A DNA stretch of 34,529 nucleotides. Origin: an uncultured Kiloniellales bacterium (GTDB lineage Bacteria > Pseudomonadota > Alphaproteobacteria > Kiloniellales > JAKSDN01). The notes beneath the pieces were generated by a model. The model had not been told where the DNA came from. It saw nothing but the letters and a program-made list of their open reading frames with translations, and did not search any database. Positions 1 to 20,691 of this stretch are shown in pieces. The first letter of the stretch is position 1, and every line of letters starts with the position of its first letter. Position numbers and translations under genes: made by a program. The DNA is taken from contig CAMYKD010000066.1 in the NCBI GenBank assembly GCA_947258885.1, positions 1 to 34,529 on the forward strand, read 5' to 3'.

Positions 1-162
1 CGGTGCCAGCTGTTCCAACGCCGCCTTGGCGCCGGCCAGCAGGAACTCGCAGCGCTCCTCCGACTGGTCCTCGGGCAGGCGCAGGCCGGCCGTCAACGTG
101 ACGCCCAGCCAGCCGGCGATCAGCGTCTCGCCGCCTTCGGCGATCACTTGATAAGGATCCAT
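1..162 (-). CDS. N-terminal fragment of an unrecognised protein (runs off left edge)
   Basis: An open frame on the minus strand starts with ATG at 160-162 and is still open at the window edge (54 codons visible, beginning MDPYQVIAEGGETLIAGWLG). An AGGGAGG ribosome binding site lies about 6 nt upstream of the ATG (complement of 169-175), and a near-consensus promoter precedes it, so this is a real gene start. The visible part has no signal peptide, no clear membrane segment and no motif I recognise; it is fairly acidic with an Ala/Leu-rich second half. The function is unknown and the rest of the gene is needed for any family assignment. Confidence 0.7.
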   Translation of the reverse strand, partial: MDPYQVIAEGGETLIAGWLGVTLTAGLRLPEDQSEERCEFLLAGAKAALEQLAP

Positions 163-184
163 GGCTTGCCTCCCTGAAAGTCTT

Positions 185-203
185 ATGATAGGAAATATAT
201 CAT
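185..203. promoter_or_regulatory. Candidate operator: ATGATA-7-TATCAT inverted repeat
   Basis: ATGATA at 185-190 and TATCAT at 198-203 form a perfect 6-bp inverted repeat with a 7-nt spacer. It overlaps the -10 element and the predicted transcription start of the left-edge gene, the usual place for a repressor site. The regulator is not identifiable from sequence, and AT-rich short repeats can arise by chance. Confidence 0.4.
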
Positions 204-222
204 CTAAAACGACGTTTGTCAA
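194..222 (-). promoter_or_regulatory. Sigma70-type promoter of the left-edge gene
   Basis: Read on the minus strand there is TTGACA (complement of 217-222, a perfect -35), a 17-nt spacer and TATATT (complement of 194-199, 5 of 6 matches to the -10 consensus). Transcription would start near 187, about 25 nt upstream of the ATG at 162. This is the best match to a consensus housekeeping promoter that I found in the window. Confidence 0.75.
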
Positions 223-301
223 GAACAAACCGGCATAGCTTCGCTTTCGAAAACGACGAAGGGTCGCCCTGGAGGCACAGCGGAACCAAAGAGGGAAACA
301 G

Positions 302-341
302 GGACTGGCTCCGTTTGACGCCAGGCAAACGATGCCTGTCC
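302..341 (+). repeat. REP-like hairpin, left copy
   Basis: The outer stem GGAC(T)GGC pairs with GCC(T)GTCC with one T-T mismatch, and the inner stem CGTTTG (312-317 region) pairs with CAAACG (326-331 region) around a small loop. The sequence between the conserved ends differs from the right copy mainly at paired positions. Confidence 0.65.
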
Positions 342-391
342 CTCTTTCCCGGGCCGCCGGACGCACCCGGCTTGGCAACCCGCGAAAATGA

Positions 392-431
392 GGACAGGCA
401 CGGATTCGCTGGCGCGAATGCGAGCCAGTCC
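392..431 (-). repeat. REP-like hairpin, right copy
   Basis: This is the inverted partner of the left copy. The inner stem here is ATTCGC/GCGAAT around a short loop, while the ends GGACTGGC and GCCTGTCC are identical to the left copy when read on the minus strand. Confidence 0.65.
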
Positions 432-622
432 CCGTTTTCGCTCCCCGCCGCACCAAATCCACCTCTTGGTTCTCTGTGCCCCGGCGCACCCGCGGTAAAC
501 CCTTTTGATTTCAAAGAGTTACATGATGATGTTCACTTCAGAATCGGCGTATAACTCATTGAAAACACAGATATTTCTACCGTACATGGGCTCGTTTGCT
601 CAAAAAGGCGGCCGGGCCGCCT

Positions 623-19520: not shown

Positions 19521-20567
19521 TCATCCGTCTTGTCGTCCGTGCCTTCGGCCTCGGTGGGCTCGGCTTGCGGGACCTCGGCCGGCTCGGCTTTGACGGCCGG
19601 CGGCGATTCGGCCTCTGCGGCCTCGGGCCCTTCGGCAGCCGGCTCTTCGGCTTTCTCCTCCGCGGCCGGCTCTTCTCTGATCTGGCGCCGGCTCTCCGGC
19701 TTTCTCCTCCGCGGCCGGCTCTTCTGCTGTCTGATCTGGCGCCGGCTCTCCGGCTTTCTCCTCCGCGGCCGGCTCTTCGGCTGTCTGATCTGGCGCCGGC
19801 TCTTCGGCTACGGTCTCCTCCGGAAGACTTTCCCTGGGCGCCTCTTCGGCCTCACCCACATCGCTGCCCCGCGCGGTGAGCTCCTCCTGAATTCCGTCGA
19901 GTACCGCGTCGGCCACCAAATCGCAGTAGAGGCTGATCGCCCGGATGGCGTCGTCGTTGCCCGGAATGGGATGGTCTATGCCGAGGGGATCGGAGTTGGA
20001 GTCCAGCACGGCAACCACGGGAATCCCCAATTTGCGGGCTTCCGCCACGGCGATGTGCTCCTTGTTCGTATCGATCACGACGAGCACGTTCGGCAATCCG
20101 CCCATTTCCTTGATCCCGCCGAGGGCGCGTTCCAGCTTGTCCCGCTCGCGGGTCAAGTTCAGGATCTCCTTCTTGGTCAGGCCCGTGTTCTCCTCCGCCA
20201 GGCGTTCATCGACGTCACGCAGCCGCTTGATCGAATTGGAGATGGTTTTCCAGTTCGTCAGCATGCCGCCCAGCCAGCGGTGATTCACGTAGTACTGGCC
20301 GCATTTCTTGGCGGATTCGGCGATCTTCTCGCTGGCCTGGCGTTTGGTGCCGACGAACAGCACTCGACCGCCCCCGGCCACCACTTCGCGGACCAGGTTG
20401 AGCGCTTGGTGCAGCAGGGGCACCGTCTGCTCGAGATCGATGATGTGAACGCCGTTGCGCACGCCGAAGATGTAAGGCGACATCCTCGGGTTCCAGCGGC
20501 GGGTGGTGTGTCCAAAGTGAACGCCAGCTTCCAGAAGCTGGCGCATGGAGAAGCTCGGCAGCGCCAT
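19521..20567 (-). CDS. rpsB: 30S ribosomal protein S2 with repeat-encoded, frame-shifted tail
   Basis: Residues 1 to about 230 are a complete S2 ([26 protein letters not shown], and [12 protein letters not shown] followed by [16 protein letters not shown]), which sits on the 30S head-body junction. A C-terminal extension follows, as in many Rhodospirillales S2 proteins: an acidic Glu/Ala/Pro tail with 18-aa repeats ([18 protein letters not shown]). After residue 297 the frame changes, because one 54-nt repeat has lost 5 nt, and the last 51 residues become Arg/Gly-rich, ending at 19521. In the other frame the acidic tail continues to a TGA at 19418-19420, which implies an ancestral protein of about 384 residues. 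The S2 core is intact, so the gene should function. An indel error in assembly is possible. The GAGGG before the ATG supports the start. Confidence 0.93.
19651..19807 (-). repeat. 54-nt tandem repeat array in the rpsB tail
   Basis: Three adjacent units: 19754-19807 (54 nt), 19700-19753 (54 nt) and 19651-19699 (49 nt). The first two differ at only a few positions and encode the 18-aa repeat in frame. The third lacks 5 nt (GCTGT on the plus strand) at the junction 19676/19677. A partial unit (GGCTCTTCGG) continues at 19641-19650. The deletion could have arisen by slippage between the short TCT and CTG motifs in TCTGCTGTCTG. Confidence 0.88.
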
Positions 20568-20691
20568 ATTTCCCTCTTTTCCGGTTTAGCCTCCGCGGGC
20601 GGATGATCCGGCCGAGCCGGACACCGGAGCGACGCTCGAGGATGTCTCCCCCGATAGCCACATGCCCACGTGCGAAATTCAAGTGTGCCGC

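Follow-up and report, generated by a model that had tools for sequence, protein, structure and literature searches.

Two hairpins that lie side by side in one element, with nearly the same base and with stems that differ by whole base pairs, raise the question of whether a structure has been maintained while its sequence drifted, or whether two REP subfamilies have been joined. Both readings had been offered in a preliminary description of the window, i.e. the stretch of 34,529 nucleotides from an uncultured Kiloniellales bacterium that was analysed here. Our answer is that the element is probably a non-autonomous REPIN-type repeat which was copied by a RAYT and whose stems have been exchanged as cassettes, with some compensatory mutation in addition.

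The element occupies positions 291-443 of the window (153 nt; its end, observed at about 443, had previously been placed at 445) between a reading frame starting at 162 (minus strand) and glnS at 750, and contains two inverted 42-nt core hairpins. Half A (291-352, plus strand) has an outer stem GGGAAAC/TCTTTCCC around the core hairpin at 301-342 (plus strand), whose base reads GGGACTGGCTC/ATGCCTGTCCC with two T.T mismatches and whose apical stem spans 312-331 (plus strand). Half B (382-443, minus strand) has an outer stem GCGAAAAC/CATTTTCGC around the core hairpin at 391-432, with the apical stem at 402-421 (both minus strand). The halves are separated by a spacer, 29 nt long in this copy, which forms a hairpin of its own (353-376, plus strand) in the fold of the single-stranded DNA. 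Against dinucleotide shuffles the 62-nt halves fold as single strands with z scores of -6.97 (A) and -5.92 (B), and the whole element with -7.04. The minimum-energy fold of the element consists of three hairpins and its centroid fold pairs across the halves; local and cross-half folds thus compete.

The window copy lies inside a further inverted repeat, with a left arm GGCACAGCGGAACCAA at 274-289 and a right arm TTGGTTCTCTGTGCC at 466-480 (both plus strand), which was recognised by reading the sequence and, for the left arm, also in an RNA fold. Apparently, the REPIN is an insertion nested into a palindrome of the ACAGAG type. Palindromes of this type are present at the same upstream position in some copies of the family to which the frame starting at 162 belongs; this family is present in multiple copies in the genus, and the frame itself has a promoter-like TTGTTCTTGACA upstream (window 1-290). 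At the window site, the one site inspected, a clean empty site was not seen; synteny breaks there at about 540. Elsewhere in the window, positions 20567-20674 (minus strand) match the Rfam rpsB sRNA with 44.4 bits (gathering threshold 40).

Read in the same orientation and numbered along the 42-mer (one higher than in the earlier numbering), the two hairpins show exactly the three paired swaps that had been described: 12-31 is C-G in A and G-C in B, 14-29 is T-A and A-T, and 17-26 is G-C and C-G. The swap is real, yet not clean. Pairs 13-30 (G-C in A, C.C in B), 18-25 (A.G, G-C), 11-32 (C.A, C-G) and 1-42 (G-C, G.T) are incompletely compensated, and pairs 15-28, 16-27 and 19-24 have the same type in both hairpins. 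Since the stem of A belongs to a class that we call A2 and the stem of B to class B1, the swaps between them mainly reflect a difference between classes. Within its class the window's A stem carries one compensatory change, T16-A27 as compared with C16-G27 in the other five A2 stems. This paired change speaks for stepwise compensatory drift, according to which a hairpin selected for transposase recognition or for a role in RNA changes one pair at a time, the two halves having diverged in place. As the main source of the stem differences we consider such drift unlikely, in view of the comparisons described below.

The element is not a single occurrence. With the 153-nt element as query, 60 matches at E <=10 were obtained in the window's genome (G000), a number that includes the query itself, reverse-strand matches and weak chance matches; 8 other copies are approximately full length and 71-83% identical to the query. 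From 42 hairpins of G000, G001 and G002 (the latter two being the other genus genomes searched) a covariance model was built, which gave 26, 34 and 12 matches, respectively, at E 0.01, corresponding to 25, 33 and 12 hairpins after removal of two opposite-strand duplicates. Those of G000 are arranged as 9 inverted pairs and 7 singles. The window's own hairpins match model R1 with E values of 2.7e-8 (A) and 1.5e-9 (B), a model that was itself built with both of them. With stricter filters, the three genus members were the only ones to match the covariance model among 61 genomes of the order; the other 58 gave no match. An inverted pair of REP hairpins with a spacer, present in many copies dispersed over the genome, is in keeping with a REPIN, and the designation as REPIN-like is further supported by RAYT genes of other genomes whose ends match.

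Intergenic DNA often contains palindromes, which counts for the view that the two hairpins are a chance pair or ordinary transcription terminators. This is very improbable, given a multi-copy family with defined ends, z scores of about -7 for folding, covariation, and RAYT genes with matching ends elsewhere. A lack of both further copies and a RAYT had been named as the finding that would reduce the element to a chance pair; copies were found, as were RAYTs in other genomes, though none with these ends in the genus.

For comparison of the copies we collected 48 hairpins from 40 loci, allowing up to 2 mismatches in each head and an insert of 14-26 nt; the 6 hairpins that were not 42 nt long were excluded from the alignments. 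The core base GGGACtGGCtC/GtGCCtGTCCC (22 nt, two T.T mismatches) is retained across the copies, partly by construction, as the heads served to select the hairpins. The apical part is in most cases self-complementary, and its sequence varies among copies and lineages. In the window, half A deviates from it by A for G at 32 and half B by T at 42. Forms of 27-28 nt, which fell outside the collection, have lost the apical stem and kept the base; they are seen at L003, L005, L011, L273, L274, L275 and L276, in several species. At L010, L013, L254, L271, L274 and L275, single hairpins combine a left outer arm of the B type with an A-like right one and resemble collapsed pairs; the sequence of L271, GTGCCAGTCCC, looks like a join at GCC. 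At L012, compared with L257, the core of half B has been lost in G000 between GGGGA and CCCC, and the outer stem is retained.

The two halves of the element represent two subtypes. In A halves the outer stem is GGGAAA/TTTCCC and the apical stems fall into classes A1-A3, in B halves it is GCGAAAA/TTTTCGC, with classes B1-B4; the two sets of classes are disjoint in 42 classified hairpins, with three stems (L006 B, L007, L244) lying 4-6 letters from their nearest class. Thus, the proposal that two REP subfamilies were joined fits the difference within the element better than drift does. All 14 intact pairs of the genus are heterodimers. The same was found in an unrelated phylum, in Desulfoscipio geothermicus DSM 3669 (Bacillota; 93 copies), where all five close inverted pairs combine an X with a Y hairpin (chance from stem frequencies 0.016). 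For the 14 natural genus pairs the minimum free energy minus the sum of the local folds was a modest +0.2 to -12.1 kcal/mol, and 7 of them folded across the halves. When the A stem was placed in both halves, all 14 folded across the halves, with differences of -11.4 to -32.0 kcal/mol. That homodimers are predicted to fold in this way is near-trivial physics, yet it gives a reason for heterodimers: unlike stems in A and B would prevent the halves from collapsing into one long cruciform.

Covariation was analysed in an ungapped alignment of 42 hairpins (37 distinct) from the three genus genomes. In the named structure, which was read from the same sequences, 94.1% of the pairs were standard as compared with 82.1% after shuffling, and the covariation score was 0.306 as compared with 0.113; none of 500 shuffles, which ignore relatedness, came as high in either measure, and slid structures scored at most 0.080. 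Both measures support the covariation noted earlier. Changes on both sides occurred in 7 of the 17 pairs, every one of them in the apical stem. For these 42 hairpins the number of such pairs (7, shuffled 5.7; 86 of 500 shuffles as high) and the number of further pair types (23, shuffled 20.9; 58 of 500) are unexceptional. With the outer stems included, the score was 0.325 as compared with 0.117 (0 of 500 shuffles as high), and the pairs changed on both sides and the further pair types were equalled in 9 and 35 of 500 shuffles, respectively.

Because of the two properties of this test, its disregard of relatedness and its self-derived structure, the Desulfoscipio data set matters. There, three two-pair haplotypes, all of them fully paired, account for 59 of 63 Y stems (TT..AA in 24, CT..AG in 23, CA..TG in 12), and just 4 are mixed, which argues against drift by single steps. 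On the other side, G.T intermediates do occur among the genus hairpins, as do mismatched intermediates in B stems. The strand test based on wobble pairs (27 G.T versus 5 A.C; 11 versus 5 when distinct kinds are counted) is suggestive only.

In the genus, individual elements were compared between two or three genomes. Orthologous loci were found by all-against-all comparison of the element loci and by alignments. Ten are available for the A half: L004/L246/L261, L005/L251, L006/L248, L011/L250, L012/L257, L016/L247, L022/L260, L003/L249, L007/L273/L276 and L027/L253. By our reading, the class of the A stem differs at five of them (the L004 set, L005, L016, L022, L027) and is the same at five; in this count the elements at L022 and L027 are truncated with the stem intact, the 41-nt hairpin of L260 is not classed, orthology is weaker on one side at L016 and L027, L016 is without a B half, and L003/L249 is rearranged. 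Where both copies are intact 42-mers, the swapped A stems differ at 7, 12 and 8 of the 20 apical positions, and around them the heads show 0-1 changes (22 positions) and the outer stems 0-2 (20 positions). Moreover, for every swapped stem there is a counterpart at some non-orthologous locus from which it differs by only 0-2 letters. Both observations argue against drift. In its favour, L006/L248 and L007/L273/L276 differ by few changes within one class, and the latter set shows a paired A-T/G-C difference at 18-25.

Full-length stems of B halves can be compared at 2 loci. In L261, 8 of 20 apical positions differ from L004/L246, with 0-1 changes in the head and 2-4 in the outer stem. The B stem of L006/L248 has 4 of 20 letters changed, which moves it from class B2 to B4, both distant; by our count this would be drift rather than exchange.

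L005 and L251 are 92% identical over 1,340 bases; the other G001 matches to L005 are element copies or weaker, partial matches to the flanks, of which the longer ones have 67-77% identity. At L005/L251 the A stem has been replaced, head and outer stem are identical (0 of 42 positions differ), and the B half is the same short form in both genomes with one letter changed. At L004/L246 the A stem has likewise been replaced, with 3 of 42 differences in outer stem and heads and a nearly identical B half. These two loci also bear on the idea that different REPINs were inserted independently into the same sites, by target preference or by excision and re-insertion. In favour of this idea, RAYT elements are regarded as mobile, and one paper on REPINs (PMC3116915) cites titles on REPs that serve as targets of insertion sequences. 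Against it stand, at both loci, the near-identical B half and the near-identical A heads and outer stem beside a replaced A stem; we consider independent insertion improbable.

The outer pair -1/+1 is associated with the stem class (p 0.008): C-G occurs with A1 in 9 copies and with A2 in 1, and A-T with A1 in 1 and with A2 in 5. All four combinations are thus present. One of the exceptions, L251, is an orthologous swap, as L005 of G000 has C-G with A1 and L251 of G001 has C-G with A2. The direction of change is available only from L004/L246/L261, where the G001 copy has a local duplication: if G001 and G002 are sisters, as is suggested by 95.8% identity at L273/L276/L007 versus about 92%, the A stem changed in G001 and the B stem in G002. 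The swap at L005/L251 is unpolarised, because in G002 the orthologue of L005 is broken up by contig ends.

The window copy itself seemed to offer the best case of a swap, since its flanks align with those of L255 at 71% and both apical stems differ. Orthology of L255 was ruled out, because the flanking gene is multi-copy and has closer relatives (81% and 84%) elsewhere. L255 is therefore left out of the ten loci, though its A1 stem, which is set in an A-T frame, does count among the four combinations.

As the genus genomes are fragmented (236, 550 and 640 contigs), chimeric joins could have arisen at swap loci, short-read assemblers having connected the wrong copies over conserved flanks. In addition, L010 and L013 are separated from a contig end by no more than about 130 bases, and runs of N adjoin L002 and L012. 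At about 60 nt, the repeat that surrounds a stem is shorter than usual assembly word lengths, and swaps recur at several loci. Covariation is also found in Desulfoscipio DSM 3669, though this is no test of exchange. We regard it as improbable that the swaps are assembly artefacts.

Drift alone appears insufficient for the stem differences at the orthologous loci, and exchange between copies would explain them. As judged from these alignments, exchange seems to matter more than stepwise drift, because whole-cassette replacements sit in near-constant bases and outer stems. Of the earlier statement that structure is maintained while sequence drifts, one part stands, as genuine compensatory changes do occur; the large differences between orthologous stems are instead replacements of whole classes.

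Which enzyme could have copied the element was asked in the same genomes and beyond. Of the genomes behind the stretches with the basal module that are described below, the RAYT searches covered 20 for PF01797 and 28 for P0001. P0001, the clearest case of a RAYT gene with matching ends, is that of L153 (JAJRQB010000092, a deltaproteobacterial MAG); it scores 88.2 bits with NCBIfam REP_Tyr_transpos (cut-off 80), matches Pfam Y1_Tnp and has hairpins of this kind on both sides. Six exact hairpins occur in that genome, and 4 of them are located at this gene. Two further family hairpins (L153 702-730 and 818-856) lie in frame inside the gene, with no stop. Among 28 P0001-like genes from hairpin-bearing genomes (P0001 included; from 30 loci, L237 and L238 yielding no frame), 7 have GGGAC[AT]GGC at a distance of up to 250 bp or immediately inside the reading frame, and in 3 of these the motif is present at both ends. 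The latter are L213, with hairpins on both sides, and L217 and L235 from Nitrospira, whose ends read GGGACAGGCTAC, not GGGACAGGCAC; L235 is a fragment. Tandem GGGACAGGCTAC motifs about 840 bp from the L214 RAYT were not counted. Because exact hairpins have a density of only about 0.7 to 25 per Mb in the seven genomes with both hairpins and P0001-like genes, the both-sided matches are unlikely to be due to chance; one-sided ones could be so in part.

In the genus the situation is different. The three genomes, which are 91-97% complete, contain 14 Y1 genes (2 in G000; L172 is L224 of the P0001-like set), and none of the 14 has the ends of this family, so that the RAYT sought in the window's genome and genus was not found there. 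A head with one mismatch, GGGACTGGCGC, lies inside the gene in 4 of the 14, a single head each, which we read as coding coincidence. As mobilisers these genes were rejected: 8 of the 10 with flanks examined have other terminal inverted repeats (L031, L032, L171, L172, L174, L175, L176, L178). No terminal inverted repeat was seen at L179 and L182, the latter cut by a contig end, and L173, L177, L180 and L181 were covered by the motif scan only. The terminal repeats at L031, L032, L171, L174, L175 and L176 are of six unlike types, all different from the window's family. The mobiliser of the genus may lie in an assembly gap or have been lost, or its role may be taken in trans by a different RAYT.

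The basal module extends far beyond the genus. At least 117 stretches, in many phyla according to the record titles, carry it with other apical parts; as the scan fixed the 22 basal letters, only the folding of the apical part is an independent result. Among 87 distinct inserts outside the genus, 65 fold better than 95% of letter shuffles and 22 do not; in the genus this holds for 35 of 41.

The interpretation that we consider probable is the following. Most likely a RAYT (a Y1/HUH transposase) once copied the element, reading the bases of the hairpins as single-stranded DNA, as would be expected by analogy with the recognition by TnpAREP (PMC8266576, in vitro). The apical part would then need only to fold, so that any folding stem is tolerated. 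Stems could move as cassettes between halves of the same type in dispersed copies, by short-tract gene conversion or by template switching, for which about 20 near-identical letters are available on each side. Together with some compensatory mutation, such exchange would produce the paired swaps, and selection for local folding would act on the result. A more specific version is tentative and, in our estimate, rather unlikely: tips of about 20 nt within the 42-nt hairpin would move as folded single-stranded cassettes, either by the RAYT or by hairpin-directed template switching, and between halves of the same subtype only. Heterodimers would thereby be kept, and shape would be inherited independently of sequence.

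Several known systems resemble this family in part. Integron attC sites are folded single-stranded hairpins, in which the enzyme reads unpaired positions. The window family is likewise a folded single-stranded DNA hairpin and differs in the enzyme. In a study on TnpAREP, attC sites are discussed as an analogue of REP hairpins (Corneloup et al. 2021, PMC8266576). That study, in vitro work on three systems, describes for E. coli a conserved bulge in the hairpins and an upper half with a structural role only. The stem mismatches are similar here, and a conserved base with a free apical stem resembles the non-specific upper half (PMC8266576). Unlike in E. coli REPs as described there, no GTAG was found within 10 nt of the foot in any of our 48 hairpins, and the RAYT is different; CGTC, looked for in the same way at either foot in hairpin orientation, was likewise found in none of the 48.

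In Pseudomonas fluorescens, compensatory changes in REPINs are common in the spacer hairpin (Bertels and Rainey 2011, PMC3116915). The two inverted REPs, the spacer and folding as single-stranded DNA are shared with the window's element. The differences are that no cognate RAYT with the same REP flanks, the usual companion of a REPIN, was found in the genome, that the element is about 153 nt long with halves of two subtypes, and that the changes affect the apical stems of the two REPs instead of the spacer hairpin.

TIRtrons and TIRYTs have TIR repeats that share GGGGWSAS (Di Nocera et al. 2013, PMC3733652). A sequence that fits this consensus, GGGGACAG, is present in 12 of 20 B halves and 13 of 48 hairpins overall; the window's B half reads GAGGACAG. 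Like TIR repeats, the hairpins are palindromic, match the ends of RAYT-like genes and occur as single and dimeric copies; hairpins on both sides of a RAYT-like gene were seen in another genome (L213), and the close variant GGGACAGGCTAC on both sides at L217 and L235, as compared with 0 of 14 genes in the window's genus. Unlike for TIR repeats, no mobiliser was found in the genome, the apical stems are variable and the stems appear to be exchanged between copies. The same text mentions heterodimeric REP pairs with unlike stems and suggests protection from cruciform-cutting enzymes (PMC3733652); to this our data add the 14 of 14 genus pairs, the 5 of 5 pairs in an unrelated phylum and the folding calculation.

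Gene conversion of REPs was raised as a question in the title of a 1988 review, which stands in the reference lists of both papers (PMC3116915, PMC3733652). Compensatory changes in REPINs have already been published. Among the literature matches listed for REP or REPIN and gene conversion, none was seen to describe stem cassettes being exchanged at orthologous loci, which is weak evidence of absence; the matches listed for the head motifs as text are unrelated by title. No host function of the element has been shown. The value of the family lies in its orthologous copies: sister species can be compared locus by locus, the stem serving as a variable marker between near-constant flanks. This comparison makes exchange, tract length and the barriers between subtypes measurable. 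With its base module in many phyla, the family also provides biochemical work on RAYTs with a substrate whose recognised portion seems to be distinct from a portion that only folds.
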